The notes below the pieces were generated by a model that was not told the DNA's origin, made no database searches, and was given only the letters and a program-made list of their open reading frames with translations. Shown here one piece after another: positions 13,491-20,103 of a stretch of DNA of 60,958 nucleotides. The position numbers and the translations under genes are program-made. This DNA comes from Afipia sp. (GTDB lineage Bacteria; Pseudomonadota; Alphaproteobacteria; Rhizobiales; Xanthobacteraceae): NCBI GenBank assembly GCA_017474385.1, contig JAFVHU010000013.1, positions 1 through 60,958 of the forward strand, written 5' to 3'. Numbering within the stretch: position 1 is the first letter of the stretch; every line of letters starts with the position of its first letter.

Positions 13491-14873
13491 ATGAAATTGC
13501 CGCTCGTCATTGCCGCGATATTGGCGGCCCTGCCCGGCTCCGCCGCCGCGCAGACGCCGGCCAAGCAGCAGCCGCAGGCCAAGCAGGCGCCCTCGCAGAT
13601 CAAGCCCAAACCGGTGACGACAGTGCCGATCCGCCCGGCGGTGCAGGCCCCGGTCGATACCGCCAAGGCGATGGAGCAGGCCGAGCGTCTCGCAATCCAG
13701 TCGGATCTGGCCTGGGTCAGCCTCTACAACGGCGCCATCAATGGCGAGGCCAGTGACCGAATGGTGGCCGCCATCAAGGCCTTCCAGAAGGATCATGGCG
13801 CCAAGGAAACCGGTGTGCTGAACGCGCAGGAACGCAGCACGCTAGGTGCGGCTGCGAAAAAATCGCAGGACAATGTCGGCTGGAGGATCGTCAGCGACGC
13901 GACCAGCGGTGCGCGCATCGGCCTGCCATCGAAACTGGTGCCGCTGATCGTCAGCGACGTGAATGGCACCAAATGGTCCTCCGCCACCGGCACCATCCAG
14001 ATCGAATACGCACGCCGCAAGGAAGCCGGCGCAACCACCGCGACAGTCGCCGCCAGCGAGAAGAAACTGAACGCGCGCAAGGCTGACTACAGCGTGGTGA
14101 AACCGGAGTTCTTCGTGCTGTCGGGATCGCAGGGCCTGAAGAAATTCTATATTCGCGGTCAGACGCGGAACGACGAAGTCCGCGTTCTCACCATCCTCTA
14201 CGATCAGGCCACCGAAGGCACCATGGTTCCGGTCACGGTGGCGATGTCGAGCGCCTACAATCCATTCCCCGGCAACGGCGTCGCGCAGATCAGTCCGCCG
14301 CGCAAGAAGGTCGAATACTCCACCGGCATCATTGCCAGCGCCGACGGCGCGATTGTCGCGGACCGTCAGGCGACCGACGGCTGCATGACCATTGCCGTGC
14401 CGGGATACGGCAACGCGACCCGCATCGCGGATGACGAAGCACGCGAGCTGGCGTTGCTGCGCATCTACGGCGCGACCGGGTTGAAGCCGCTGGCGATAGC
14501 CAACAATGGCGCGACAAAACCCAATGTGAGCATCATCGGCATTTCCGATCCGCAGAACCAGGGCGGACGCAATGCCGTGACCAGCGTTGCTGCCGTTGCC
14601 GCGCCCGTGGGCACCGACATGACGCTGTCGCCCGAGCCCGCCGTTGGTTTCTCCGGCGCGGCTGCCGTCGACAGCGACGGTAAATTCGCAGGGCTGGCGC
14701 GGCTCAAACCCGCAATCGTGGTGGGGCCAACGGGCACGCCGCTGCCATCGCAAGCAGTGCTTGTTTCTGCCGATTCGGTGCGCGAGTTTCTGAAGGCGAA
14801 AAATGTGACGCCGGCATCTGGCGCGTCCGATACCAAGGCATCGGTGCTGCGGCTGGTCTGCGTTCGGAAGTAA
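13491..14873 (+). CDS. Secreted peptidoglycan-binding/trypsin-like protein, apparently catalytically degenerate
   Basis: The 460-residue product starts with a signal peptide (MKLPLVIAAILAALPGSAAAQ) and a Gln/Pro/Lys-rich linker. A peptidoglycan-binding-like domain follows (about 60-115, with SDRMVAAIKAFQKDHG). The C-terminal third (about 280-460) looks like a trypsin-fold domain. It keeps GFSGAA, with the Ser of the GxSG motif. However, the expected NAHVV motif is replaced by ADRQAT and the DLALL Asp segment reads ELALL. It is probably a periplasmic non-enzymatic or altered protease. ATG 13491 is preferred because it begins the signal peptide. It is divergent from the MoeB-like gene. Confidence 0.85.
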   Translation: MKLPLVIAAILAALPGSAAAQTPAKQQPQAKQAPSQIKPKPVTTVPIRPAVQAPVDTAKAMEQAERLAIQSDLAWVSLYNGAINGEASDRMVAAIKAFQKDHGAKETGVLNAQERSTLGAAAKKSQDNVGWRIVSDATSGARIGLPSKLVPLIVSDVNGTKWSSATGTIQIEYARRKEAGATTATVAASEKKLNARKADYSVVKPEFFVLSGSQGLKKFYIRGQTRNDEVRVLTILYDQATEGTMVPVTVAMSSAYNPFPGNGVAQISPPRKKVEYSTGIIASADGAIVADRQATDGCMTIAVPGYGNATRIADDEARELALLRIYGATGLKPLAIANNGATKPNVSIIGISDPQNQGGRNAVTSVAAVAAPVGTDMTLSPEPAVGFSGAAAVDSDGKFAGLARLKPAIVVGPTGTPLPSQAVLVSADSVREFLKAKNVTPASGASDTKASVLRLVCVRK

Positions 14874-14878
14874 CTACA

Positions 14879-15760
14879 TCACTTCTGGCAGGTCGGACAC
14901 CAGAACGTCGAGCGGCCGTTCTGGGTGAATCTCTTCACCGTGCCTTTGCACTTCGGCGTCTTGCAGGGTTCGCCTTCGCGGTCATAGACCAGAAACGAAT
15001 GCTGGAAATACCCAAGCTCACCGTCGGTCTGGCGATGATCGCGCAGCGATGAGCCGCCCGCCTTGATCGCGGCATTCAGCACGGTGTGAATTGAACTGAC
15101 CAGACGCTTGGCATGATCGGTGGGGCCACCTTTGCGATCGGCCAATGTCGAGGCCTGCCGTTTCGGCGACAAATGCGAGCGAAACAGCGCCTCGCAGACA
15201 TAGATGTTTCCGAGGCCTGCCACCACGCGCTGATCGAGCAGCGCAGCTTTCAGTGACGTTTTCTTGCCGGCGCAGGACTGCGCCAGCATCGCGGCATCGA
15301 ATTCGTTGCCGAGCGGTTCGGGTCCCAGACCACGCAGCAGGGGCTCCGCTTCCATGTCCGTGCGCGGCACTATTTTCATGTAGCCGAAGCGGCGCGGATC
15401 GTTGAACGAGATCATCGCGCCGGACGCCATGTGAAACACCACATGATCGTGGGTCCGGTTCTCGCTGCGCGGATAGTGAAAGTCGCCCGGTGTGCTCTCG
15501 CCCTCGGGAAGTATCACGCGGAACGAGCCGGACATGCCGAGATGCATCAGCAGCACGTCGCCGCTCTCCATGTCGGCCATCAGGTATTTCGCACGCCGGC
15601 CGAGGCCGCTGACCACCTTGCCCTCAAGACGCGCGACAAAATCCTTTTGAAACGGAAATCGCAAGCCCTCGCGGCGGGTCTCGACGCGCGCGATCCGCTG
15701 CCCCTCCATCACCGGCTGCAGGCCGCGCCGAACGGTTTCGACCTCGGGCAGTTCAGGCAT
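14879..15760 (-). CDS. mutM: Formamidopyrimidine-DNA glycosylase MutM (Fpg)
   Basis: The 293-residue product begins [14 protein letters not shown], where Pro1 (after Met removal) and Glu2 are the catalytic residues. It has the H2TH region ([14 protein letters not shown]) and a C-terminal zinc finger with Cys pairs CKTPKC and CPTC. MutM removes 8-oxoguanine and nicks the abasic site. Length is normal. In several related alphaproteobacteria mutM lies next to ubiE-ubiB-coaBC-dut near the replication origin, and that order is partly seen here. Confidence 0.98.
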
Positions 15761-16278: not shown

Positions 16279-17046
16279 ATGAGTATGGAACGGCCTGACG
16301 GAACGACGCATTTCGGCTTCCGGGATGTGGAGCTTGGCAAGAAGCAGACGCTGGTGAACGAGGTGTTTCACAGCGTGGCGAAGCGCTACGACCTGATGAA
16401 CGACCTGATGTCCGGCGGCATGCACCGGCTCTGGAAAGAGGCGATGATTACCGCGCTCAACCCGCCACGCTCCGATGCGCCATTTGCGCTGCTCGATGTG
16501 GCCGGCGGCACCGGCGATATTTCCTTCCGCGCAGCCAAGGCCGCAGGCCACGGATTTCAGGCCACCGTCTGCGATATCAACGGCGAGATGCTAGCCGTCG
16601 GCCGCGAACGCGCGGTGGCGCAGCATCTCGATCATCAGGTGTCGTTTGTCGAAGGCAATGCCGAAGCCTTGGCCTTCCCGGACAAGAGCTTCGACGCCTA
16701 CACCATCGCTTTCGGCATCCGCAATGTACCGCGGATTCCGCTGGCGCTCAGCGAGGCCTATCGCGTGCTGAAACCGGGCTCGCGGTTTCTGTGCCTGGAA
16801 TTCTCGTCCGTCGATGTGCCCGGCCTCGATCGGATCTACGATCTGTTTTCGTTCAATGTGATCCCGCGGCTTGGCCGCGCGGTCACCGGCGACGCCGAGT
16901 CCTATCGCTATCTGGTCGAATCGATCCGGCAATTTCCAAAACCCAATGCCTTCGCCGACATGATCCAAGCCGCAGGTTTCTCCCGCGTCAAATACGACGT
17001 CATGTCCGGCGGCATCGTCGCGCTCCATTCAGGCTGGCGTTTGTGA
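16279..17046 (+). CDS. ubiE: Ubiquinone/menaquinone biosynthesis C-methyltransferase UbiE
   Basis: The 255-residue protein has UbiE features: the N-terminal segment [19 protein letters not shown], the SAM-binding [15 protein letters not shown], the [13 protein letters not shown] motif, and a C-terminal [11 protein letters not shown]. It C-methylates the benzoquinol ring in ubiquinone synthesis. ATG 16279 is used; ATG 16285 is an alternative. Its stop TGA overlaps the GTG start of ubiB (GTGA at 17043-17046), which suggests coupled translation of two genes in the same pathway. Confidence 0.97.
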
Positions 17047-18611
17047 TCTCTGCCATCACTCATACCCTGAGACTGGCGCGCGCAGGTTACGTGTTCGCGC
17101 GCGAAGGCGTTTTCGGCTTCGCCGATCCATCCACCATGCCGCCGCAGGCGCAGTTCGCGGTCCGCATGGCGCGGCTGATCGAGCGGCGCGGCGCGGTCAC
17201 GAGCGGACGGCTGTCCCGCGCACTGACTCGGCTTGGCCCAACTTACGTCAAGCTCGGCCAGTTTCTCGCCACCCGTCCCGACGTGGTTGGCGTCACGATG
17301 GCGCGCGATCTTGAGAATCTGCAGGATCGTCTGCCGCCGTTTCCGCAAGCGCAGGCCGAAGCCGTGGTCGCCGACGCCTTCGAGAGGCCTGTGGCACAGG
17401 TGTTTGCGAGCTTCGGCGAATCGGTCGCCGCCGCATCCATCGCGCAGGTGCATCGCGCCGAAGTCGAGAAAGACGGCGTCCGCAAGACGGTCGCGGTGAA
17501 GGTGCTGCGACCCAACGTTGGCGGCCGCTTCCGTCATGATCTCAGCGATTTCATGTTCGCGGCGCGAAAGATCGAAGCGGTTTCGTCCGAAGCGCGGCGG
17601 CTGCGTCCGATCGAGATCGTCGATACGCTGGCGCGCACGGTGGCGATGGAAATGGATCTGCGGCTGGAAGCGGCCGCGCTCTCGGAGATGGCGGAGAACA
17701 CCCGCGAGGATCATGATTTCCGCGTGCCGTCGGTGGATTGGGATCGCACCAGCCATCATGTGCTGACGATGGAGTGGATCGACGGCATCGCGCTGAACGA
17801 TCGCGCCAAACTCGAGGCCGCGCAGATCGACCTGCCGGATCTCGGCCGCAAGGTGATACAGAATTTCCTGCGGCACGCGCTGCGCGACGGCTTCTTCCAC
17901 GCCGACATGCATCCAGGCAACCTGTTCGTCGACGACACCGGACGGCTGGTCGCGGTCGATTTCGGCATCATGGGACGACTCGGCCTGAAGGAGCGGCGCT
18001 TCCTTGCCGAGATTCTGCTGGGCTTCATCACGCGCGACTATCGCCGCGTCGCCGAAGTGCATTTCGAGGCGGGCTATGTCCCCGCGCATCATTCGGTGGA
18101 GAATTTCGCGCAGGCCATCCGCGCCATTGGCGAGCCAATCCACAACCGCGCCGCCGACGAAATCTCGATGGCGAAGCTGCTGTCGCTGCTGCTTGAAGTG
18201 ACCGGCCTGTTCGATATGCGGACGCGGCCTGAGCTGATCATGCTGCAAAAGACCATGGTGGTGGTGGAAGGCGTGGCGCGGGGTTTTGACCCCAAGCTCG
18301 ACATCTGGACCACCGCCGATCCCGTGGTGCGCGAATGGATTGCCCGCAACCTCGGGCCGCTCGGTCAGATCGAGGGCGTGGTGCACGGCGCGGGCGACCT
18401 CGGCAAGGTGCTGGCCGGGCTGCCGGCGATTGCCGCGCGGTCGGTCGCTGTGCTGAACCAGTTCGACCAGATGACCCGCGACGGGCTGGTACTGTCGCCC
18501 GAGACCGTCGAGGCCATCGGCAAAGCCGAAGCCAGACGCAACCGCTGGCAGACGGCTGCGCTGTGGGTGATCGCGCTGACGTTTATCGGTATTCTCTGGT
18601 CCATCCGCTAA
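17043..18611 (+). CDS. ubiB: Ubiquinone biosynthesis kinase-like protein UbiB
   Basis: The 522-residue protein is an ABC1/UbiB atypical kinase. It has the KxGQ motif ([13 protein letters not shown]), the Ala-rich nucleotide loop region ([11 protein letters not shown]), VAVKVLRP with the Lys, and [11 protein letters not shown]...[11 protein letters not shown] as catalytic and metal-binding loops. A C-terminal hydrophobic helix ([14 protein letters not shown]) should anchor it in the inner membrane. UbiB is needed for ubiquinone synthesis. The start is GTG 17043, overlapping the ubiE stop by 4 nt; this gives the family N terminus [20 protein letters not shown]. Its stop lies 2 bp before the coaBC operator. 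Confidence 0.96.
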
Positions 18612-18613
18612 AA

Positions 18614-18652
18614 TGATCGCATTGCAGTCATGATTTGATTGCATTGCCATCA
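18614..18652. promoter_or_regulatory. Tandem palindromic operator candidate upstream of RHH-coaBC
   Basis: Two copies of the 17-bp palindrome TGA-N2-GCATTGC-N2-TCA lie at 18614-18630 and 18636-18652. Their centres are 22 bp apart, about two helical turns, so both would face the same side of the helix. The second copy overlaps a predicted -35 element. Ribbon-helix-helix repressors usually bind such tandem palindromes, and the downstream gene encodes a protein with an N-terminal RHH domain. Confidence 0.65.
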
Positions 18653-18663
18653 TTTGCTATGAA
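18635..18663 (+). promoter_or_regulatory. Predicted promoter of the RHH-coaBC gene
   Basis: TTGATT (18635-18640) and TATGAA (18658-18663) are spaced by exactly 17 bp. The expected transcript would start near 18670, about 15 nt before ATG 18685, with GGAG at 18675-18678 as the ribosome site. The -35 lies inside the second operator palindrome. Confidence 0.55.
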
Positions 18664-18684
18664 CTGCTCATCTCGGAGCATGCC

Positions 18685-20103
18685 ATGGCCAGCCTGACCG
18701 TCCGCAAACTCGATGAAGCCCTCAAGGCCAGCCTCCGGCTACGCGCCGCCAGGGCCGGCCGCTCGGTCGAGGACGAGGTGCGGATGATCCTGCGGGAGGC
18801 CGCCGAGACAGAAGCACCGGCCAAAGCCCTGCCCGGCCCCGCACGAAACACTCCGGCCCAGCTGCACCGAACCCGCACGCATTCAGCCACGGAGCTTCCC
18901 CGGGTCACGCTCATCATCGGCGGCGGTATCGCCGCCTACAAGGCGCTCGACCTGATCCGCCGCCTGAAGGAGCGCGGCATCCATGTCCGCTGCGTGATGA
19001 CACGCGCCGCGCAGCAGTTCGTAACCCCGCTCACAGCCGGGGCGCTGGCGGACGAGCGCTGCTACACGGACTTGTTCGATGCCCAGAGCGAGTTCGACGC
19101 CGGACATATTCGCCTCGCCCGCGATACCGATCTGATTATTGTCGCACCCGCCACCGCCGACCTGATGGCCAAGATGGCGCAGGGCCAGGCCGATGATCTC
19201 GCCACCGCGATCCTGCTGGCCACCAACCGTCCGGTGCTGGTCGCGCCTGCGATGAACCCGCTGATGTGGGCCAATGCCGCGACCAAGCGCAATGTCGCGC
19301 AGCTCGCGCGCGACGGCGTCAGTTTCATCGGCCCGAATTCCGGCGAGATGGCGGAGGCGAATGAGGCCGGCGTCGGGCGCATGTCCGAGCCGACCGAAAT
19401 TGCCGTCGCAGCCGAGGCGATGCTGCGCCCGCCGCAAACAGGACCTCTTGCGGGGAAAAAGATTCTCATCACCGCGGGGCCGACCCACGAGCCGATCGAT
19501 CCGGTGCGCTACATCGCCAACCGCTCTTCCGGCAAGCAGGGTTTTGCCATTGCCGCGTCCGCCGCTGAGACCGGCGCGGAAGTGACGCTGATCTCAGGCC
19601 CGGTCGATCTTGATGATCCCGCCGGTGTCCGCGTCATTCGTGTGGAATCCGCTCGCGACATGCTGGCGCAAGTGGAACGTGCGCTGCCGGTGGACATCGC
19701 GATTTTCGCCGCCGCCGTGGCCGACTGGCGCGTTGCCAATGCCGGTGCGCAGAAAATCAAGAAGACCGCAGGCGGCATGCCACAGCTAGCATTGGTCGAA
19801 AACCCCGACATTCTGGCGACGATCTCGAAACTCAAGCAAAACCGGCCTCAACTGGTGATCGGCTTCGCGGCCGAGACCCAGAATCTGATCGAGAACGCGA
19901 CCTCGAAGCTGAAACGCAAGGGTTGCGACTGGATCGTCGCCAACGATGTCTCGCCCGCCTCCGGCGTGATGGGCGGGGATCGCAACACCGTCCATGTTCT
20001 CACGCTGGATAAATCAGACATCGCGGTTGATTCCTGGCCGGTGATGACGAAAGAGGAAGTCGCCGACGCCCTTGTGGCGAAAATCGCCGAGACCATTGCA
20101 TGA
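18685..20103 (+). CDS. coaBC: CoaBC with an N-terminal RHH DNA-binding domain
   Basis: The 472-residue protein has three parts. Residues 1-45 form a FitA-like ribbon-helix-helix domain (MASLTVRKLDEALKASLRLR, then RSVEDEVRMILREA). A linker follows to about 70. CoaC comes next (about 71-250), with IIGGGIAAYKALDLI, the catalytic His in GHIRLARDTDLIIVAP, and PAMNPLMW. CoaB (about 255-472) has ITAGPTHEPIDPVRY and NRSSGKQGFA. The enzyme couples cysteine to phosphopantothenate and decarboxylates it to 4'-phosphopantetheine in CoA synthesis. The usual flap Cys of CoaC is not seen (the stretch reads GEMAEANEAGVGRM). GGAG sets the start. No toxin gene adjoins, and dut follows. Confidence 0.93.
   Translation: MASLTVRKLDEALKASLRLRAARAGRSVEDEVRMILREAAETEAPAKALPGPARNTPAQLHRTRTHSATELPRVTLIIGGGIAAYKALDLIRRLKERGIHVRCVMTRAAQQFVTPLTAGALADERCYTDLFDAQSEFDAGHIRLARDTDLIIVAPATADLMAKMAQGQADDLATAILLATNRPVLVAPAMNPLMWANAATKRNVAQLARDGVSFIGPNSGEMAEANEAGVGRMSEPTEIAVAAEAMLRPPQTGPLAGKKILITAGPTHEPIDPVRYIANRSSGKQGFAIAASAAETGAEVTLISGPVDLDDPAGVRVIRVESARDMLAQVERALPVDIAIFAAAVADWRVANAGAQKIKKTAGGMPQLALVENPDILATISKLKQNRPQLVIGFAAETQNLIENATSKLKRKGCDWIVANDVSPASGVMGGDRNTVHVLTLDKSDIAVDSWPVMTKEEVADALVAKIAETIA

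Follow-up and report, generated by a model that had tools for sequence, protein, structure and literature searches.

We propose that the two tandem palindromes in front of the RHH-CoaBC fusion gene of this Afipia genome are an operator inherited from a FitA-FitB module that once lay between ubiB and coaBC, that the fusion arose when the toxin gene and the antitoxin tail were lost, and that CoaBC would now repress its own gene; we put the probability of this reading at roughly 0.77. The features concerned, within the window (the whole stretch of 60,958 nucleotides that was analysed), are the following.

17043..18611, + strand: ubiB-like gene (ABC1 domain; PF03109, E 1.3e-75; start inferred from relatives)
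18614..18621, + strand: putative operator box 1, TGATCGCA, left half of palindrome 1 (type and spacing of boxes taken from relatives)
18623..18630, + strand: putative operator box 2, TGCAGTCA, right half of palindrome 1
18635..18640, + strand: probable -35, TTGATT, kept in relatives though it overlaps the operator (no call in a consensus scan)
18636..18643, + strand: putative operator box 3, TGATTGCA, overlapping the -35
18645..18652, + strand: putative operator box 4, TGCCATCA (direct reading and Afipia comparison)
18658..18663, + strand: probable -10, TATGAA (TA opens the hexamer in 28 of 29 Afipia loci)
18675..18678, + strand: probable ribosome-binding site, GGAG (read from the sequence)
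18685..20103, + strand: RHH-CoaBC fusion gene, 472 aa (open reading frame and profile matches)
18688..18804, + strand: FitA-like RHH domain, aa 2-40 (PF22513, E 1.4e-16 with the N-terminus alone)
18805..18900, + strand: variable linker, aa 41-72, where FitA has its toxin-binding tail (low conservation, low pLDDT)
18901..20100, + strand: CoaC (Flavoprotein) and CoaB (DFP) catalytic domains (TIGR00521, PF02441, PF04127)

Both palindromes sit in the gap between the ubiB-like gene, whose stop is at 18611, and the fusion gene, which starts at 18685. Read directly, palindrome 1 (TGATCGCATTGCAGTCA) spans 18614-18630 with its centre at 18622, and palindrome 2 (TGATTGCATTGCCATCA) spans 18636-18652 with its centre at 18644. 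The first-pass annotation of this DNA had described two tandem 17-bp palindromes with centres 22 bp apart; their positions and spacing are as described, and the palindromes are present, though with imperfect arms, 6 of 8 pairs being complementary in the first and 7 of 8 in the second. It had also noticed no further copy in the window, and an exact-pattern search of the window agrees: TGANNGCATTGCNNTCA has two matches, versus none in 100 dinucleotide-preserving shuffles. The looser box pattern TGN4CANTGN4CA matches the same two palindromes and nothing else in the window, which alone is weak evidence, since 21 of 100 shuffles held two or more matches. A search of the organism's own genome (4.48 Mb, 84% complete) for more sites, as had been suggested, gave no exact copy of TGATNGCANTGCNATCA other than that at 18636; with one mismatch it returned 18614 and one extra place, which falls within a long open frame taken to encode a TonB-type receptor. 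This extra place was dropped as an operator because it is intragenic. At up to two mismatches the same kind of search gave 19 places (control 2).

Comparison across the order ties the sites to the fused domain. The set comprised 161 loci with the fusion and 51 without it. Dropped before counting were L030 (a partial second match of G026), L031-L045 (pattern matches), L209 (truncated), duplicate upstream regions, loci with less than 120 bp upstream and, from the unfused set, L021 (split frame); the upstream window of unfused loci was ~260 bp, so the counts for that set do not include operators located ahead of an upstream fitA. TGATTGCANTGCAATCA is matched at 13 or more of 16 positions in 118 of 128 distinct fused upstream regions, against a mean of 0.3 over 20 shuffling rounds, 0/128 inside coaBC and 0/97 at -600 to -400, and its one match among 50 unfused regions is L195, the named copy of that Afipia locus whose frame is split and which does have an RHH. 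The pattern TGN4CANTGN4CA gives 118/128 for fused and 0/49 for unfused loci (control mean 0.85, maximum 2), and the sites thus track fused RHH-coaBC in relatives in the way that the first-pass annotation had anticipated. Most of the 10 fused loci that fall below 13 of 16 carry variant boxes, such as TGATATCA, TGCTAGCA and TGCATGCA; L121 is fused, yet has no recognisable site upstream.

The exact strict site was found in 78 of 296 family genomes, once in each, and the reversed-pattern control in none; the window's own genome lies outside these 78, its best site being one base off the strict pattern. Among the 75 matches listed of the 78, 69 precede RHH-coaBC or fitA(B)-coaBC. Sixty-six of them lie directly before a fused RHH-coaBC (30 assigned by eye from coordinate comparison and 36 from fetched loci), two before an intact fitAB-coaBC, and one before fitA, a gutted fitB and coaBC. 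L330 (G048) was taken as fused, with RHH and CoaC in one frame that breaks later. The rest of those listed comprise one site at a contig end right after ubiB, three at a distant place in Afipia and two within an unrelated longer palindrome. In 297 genomes of the order there were 6 sites, all adjoining coaBC. Judged by these sequence counts, the palindromes are non-random and not a product of chance. In L331 (G087) and L341 (G119) the 17-mer is embedded in a longer palindrome, CCGATCTGATTGCANTGCAATCAGATCGG, away from coaBC.

Within Afipia, the gene is present in 29 of 29 genomes, with RHH in frame with CoaBC in 28, and the promoter-proximal palindrome is found at all 29 loci with a score of at least 12 of 16. 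The paired arrangement reported by the first-pass annotation extends to 20 of the 29, where both palindromes are full, 18 of them at 22 bp and two (L007 and L011, read by eye) at 23 bp; the other nine have only one full palindrome, the promoter-proximal one, together with a lone upstream box or fragment. In one Afipia MAG (G025; L021/L195), a stop splits RHH from CoaBC, which would make the RHH a short protein of its own; this is either a genuine fission or an assembly error.

In four Afipia relatives, an exact copy of the operator-like palindrome lies 3.7-4.3 kb upstream of coaBC (L289-L292; G006:C3:197036, G007:C1:1399620, G017:C178:32114 and G025:C5:1379165), in a convergent intergenic region ~25-30 bp past the stop of the first gene. 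The genes around it we take to be a protease-like gene and mutM, in convergent orientation. G001 (L293) has this distant palindrome with one mismatch. In these five relatives ~180-390 bp separate the protease-like gene from mutM, with the extra palindrome inside, and in the window (14873-14879) 5 bp separate the two, with no palindrome. A second exact copy ~4 kb from coaBC is what one might see if a DNA-binding protein other than the RHH of CoaBC recognised the sites. We consider this very unlikely, given that coaBC genes lacking the fused RHH are without the site (none of the 49 above) and that coaBC genes preceded by an intact fitAB do have it.

The N-terminal domain was identified by profile. 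On the N-terminal 72 aa, PF22513 scores 60.6 bits against a curated cut-off of 27, and the two solved structures matched by the N-terminus, 2h1o and 2bsq, are both of the gonococcal antitoxin FitA. The remainder is matched by TIGR00521 with E 3.8e-120 and 401.5 bits, against an equivalog cut-off of 219.7. These matches fall in one open frame and establish the fusion at the level of sequence. In the predicted model (mean pLDDT 81.2, pTM 0.52) the catalytic part is mostly confident, and aa 43-69 are disordered, with pLDDT below 50. The RHH strand forms only in the dimer, so that a monomer model cannot display it. The best 80 of 301 confirmed matches in a scan of named genomes for the RHH include Afipia, Bradyrhizobium, Nitrobacter, Tardiphaga, Pseudolabrys and Rhodopseudomonas. 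Compared with what defines a FitAB/VapBC locus, the window locus has paired inverted boxes before the start; the PIN gene is absent, as is the C-terminal toxin-binding tail, which is replaced by a variable linker, and the RHH continues in frame to CoaBC.

The RHH and the operator might be inert relics of a lost toxin-antitoxin module, kept by shared ancestry only. The fusion did derive from such a module, and the similarity among Afipia loci could largely be inertia; a tree-corrected test found four independent pairs on well-supported branches, with 3.3 on average in the same direction and 0 in the opposite one, but is underpowered, as fewer than six pairs cannot reach 0.05. Inert relics would nevertheless sit poorly with the conservation of the domain: in 36 proteins the mean majority fraction is 0.87 for RHH, as high as for CoaC (0.87) and CoaB (0.85), and 0.28 for the adjacent linker (aa 41-70). 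Box number and spacing, moreover, have been reshuffled between genera while the box sequence was retained. We therefore regard inert relics as unlikely.

Several unfused order-mates carry the putative parent module, and others appear to be intermediates. In G523, the interval between ubiB and coaBC encodes an 82-aa FitA-like protein and a 142-aa PIN protein, and TGATTGCATTGCAATCA immediately precedes the gene for the former; G535 has a fitA-fitB pair in the same interval, with TGACTGCATTGCAGTCA; and G105 and G194, which belong to the window's family, have intact fitA-fitB pairs before coaBC, with the exact site. In all four of these genomes a perfect palindrome precedes fitA and a relative of ubiB lies upstream of fitAB, and the occurrence of a like site before fitAB-coaBC is thereby established by comparison. 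Pfam recognises a FitA-like RHH and a PIN domain in the G523 and G105 pairs, and an RHH in the FitA of G535. G071 also has a fitA-fitB pair before coaBC, in this case without a box of the strict type. The intermediates are evident in G037 and G076 (L310), where fitA is full length but fitB is reduced to a few codons from either end, with coaBC following; three boxes precede fitA in G076, and none of the strict type in G037. In G472 two sites and a fitB remnant persist and fitA is gone, and G551 has a half-eroded site and neither gene. G076 shares genus code g3 with fused genomes, including G122 (L092), the linker of which contains a FitA-tail remnant (score 67 versus 42 for the next).

When 82 linkers were compared with six FitA tails, 5 reached p 0.05, about what chance would give, and only L092 stood out. 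No FitB was found in the 83 upstream regions of fused genes that were searched (at most 1.5 kb each, and just 0.5 kb in some), and it was found upstream of 4 of 50 unfused loci (some with only ~500 bp upstream). A FitB-like PIN protein or fragment does occur in 7 of the 29 Afipia genomes, that of the window included, as would be needed if the fused RHH were still an antitoxin for a FitB-like toxin encoded elsewhere. Such a role is most improbable: the FitA tail is gone, with the one linker of 82 as exception, and none of the other 22 Afipia genomes has a FitB-like PIN protein at the search threshold, for which reason a toxin in trans was rejected for most of the genus.

The arrangement of boxes in relatives bears on what the domain would bind. 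Spacings between TGATNGCA or TGCNATCA boxes are mainly 9, 18, 22/23 and 13/14 bp. At 9-bp steps, the boxes have the same orientation in 22 cases and face each other in 51, and runs of three boxes at such steps are found both before fused genes (e.g. L122) and before an intact fitA (L336). Because boxes in the same orientation follow each other at 9-bp steps, the 17-mer was rejected as the site of a single dimer. The repeating unit is probably an 8-bp box of the TGATNGCA type, and the FitA half-site, TGATAGCA, fits this box; box 2 of the window, TGCAGTCA, was found 12 times among the boxes of fused relatives. The simplest reading is one RHH dimer per 8-bp box (TG/CA ends), with four boxes in the window, and each palindrome would then probably take two RHH dimers. 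The first-pass annotation had viewed the paired palindromes as dimer sites; pairs at 22/23 bp are indeed seen, but the unit is probably the 8-bp box and not the 17-bp site.

The two sites of the window can also pair into a stem as RNA (z -4.5 against shuffles), and the palindromes might act as a hairpin in a ubiB-coaBC transcript, controlling termination or translation. Ten relatives were folded, of which L002 (z -3.96), L060 (-3.70) and L124 (-3.04) clearly beat their shuffles and L083 (-2.71) and L062 (-2.44) were somewhat better than theirs; the excess was weak or absent in L122 (-1.89), L028 (-1.98), L156 (-1.40), L084 (-1.39) and L049 (-0.46). The fold itself varies, with a single long stem for the window and L002 and two separate hairpins for L060, and we rejected the hairpin because the fold is not conserved among relatives. 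Palindromic DNA sites pair as RNA anyway, equally oriented boxes 9 bp apart are more in keeping with DNA binding, and neither an Rfam match nor a terminator-like site was found. Control through RNA is hence hard to credit, and we return to the proposal that the boxes are bound as DNA by the RHH of CoaBC.

The first-pass annotation had pointed to TTGATT, a 17-bp spacer and TATGAA, with the -35 overlapping palindrome 2, and all of these elements are there in the sequence. A consensus promoter scan of this region of the window made no call for the pair, which has 8 of 12 consensus bases. The overlap of TTGATT with the operator and the layout of the -10 are retained in Afipia relatives, the single exception at the -10 (L011) being a parsing shift. 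In L016, L018 and L025-L029 the start codon is 16 bp past the operator and ~5 bp past the probable -10, a spacing that would give a leaderless transcript.

The fusion appears to have arisen more than once. A quick tree of 96 CoaBC proteins (35 loci thinned out; L067 and L107 absent) shows at least eight changes of the fused state, gains and losses not being separated. Fused proteins are found in codes f1, f24 and f16; those of f24 branch among unfused proteins from the same genus code, and the single f16 fusion (L062) is apart from the main family. The fusion is thus present in at least three places on this tree, as the sequences place them, in line with a repeated origin. In a class-wide search of 385 genomes with aa 1-132, the own genome and G052 begin at residue 1 among the matches listed, and eight begin at residue 22-39.

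A different DNA-binding domain is joined to CoaBC in G357 (L067), where a Cro/C1-type HTH_3 lies in frame with the enzyme (29.5 bits versus 23) and two GGATATATCC palindromes, 19 bp apart at -35 and -16, precede the start. This arrangement, seen in a single genome, would be expected if it is of advantage for CoaBC to bind its own promoter. L140 (G494) has an extra N-terminus of ~70 aa on CoaBC, with no Pfam match, and was left out of the count of DNA-binding fusions. More tentatively, and with the odds somewhat against it, part of the order might share a repeated device, in which a DNA-binding domain is captured from a toxin-antitoxin or other regulatory gene beside coaBC, the oligomer serves as scaffold in the toxin's stead and the enzyme acts as sensor-repressor responding to CoA thioesters or substrates, the RHH fusions (at least three lineages) and the HTH fusion being independent.

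In the mechanism that we favour, RHH dimers carried by the CoaBC oligomer would bind the 8-bp boxes, up to four of them in the window. Occupation of the box overlapping the -35 would block RNA polymerase and turn coaBC off when the enzyme is sufficient. In place of FitB, the oligomer would act as the scaffold keeping several RHH dimers together on a single operator, and could make operator binding depend on the CoA state. DNA binding, repression, cooperativity and a response to CoA, thioesters or substrates are what we infer here from sequence. Counted against self-repression were the 10 fused loci below threshold, with the siteless L121 among them, the underpowered tree-corrected test, the distant copies in Afipia and those inside a longer palindrome, the fitA genes without a strict box in G071 and G037, the promoter scan and the RNA fold.

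Three known systems come closest to this scheme. FitA-FitB of Neisseria gonorrhoeae, of the VapBC type, has an RHH homologous to that of CoaBC (PF22513 and structures). Four FitA-FitB heterodimers are reported to occupy a 36-bp segment upstream of their own genes, and the FitB toxin to aid DNA binding by stabilising the complex of antitoxin dimers (PMC3920265). Unlike FitA-FitB, RHH-CoaBC has neither toxin nor toxin-binding tail, and its RHH is carried on a biosynthetic enzyme. A functional parallel is trifunctional PutA (RHH-proline dehydrogenase-P5C dehydrogenase), described in PMC5293562 as an RHH flavoenzyme that represses its own genes. Like PutA, RHH-CoaBC has an N-terminal RHH on a metabolic enzyme; as to a PutA-type operator at its own promoter, it has candidate sites backed by strong comparative evidence and a predicted promoter. 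PutA differs from CoaBC in belonging to another, catabolic pathway, in dimerising via its RHH and in switching to the membrane. The mycobacterial CoaBC, which is the same bifunctional enzyme, is a dodecamer with CoaC at its core and is inhibited by CoA and its thioesters; control is there on enzyme activity, and a DNA-binding domain is not described in the sections at hand (PMC7794376).

The palindromes look like a docking site for the enzyme's control of its own production, and the comparative data are best read as CoaBC regulating its own gene in the manner of PutA. Enzymes that act as repressors of their own genes are a known kind; an antitoxin domain left repeatedly on a CoA enzyme is new, within the reach of our searches, and a report of RHH-CoaBC was not found among openly licensed PMC papers.

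In conclusion, if the proposal is correct, these loci record the rare absorption of a toxin-antitoxin module into essential cofactor metabolism with its intermediates still visible: the intact module, the gutted toxin, the lost antitoxin and the completed fusion. In passages of PMC7794376, regulation of the CoA pathway is treated mostly in terms of feedback that acts on the activity of its enzymes; here, coaBC would be under transcriptional control through the enzyme itself. Such enzyme-as-repressor control would be open to testing in Bradyrhizobium and relatives, and the findings suggest looking for further enzymes whose N-termini are short and unusual and whose genes adjoin antitoxin-like operators.
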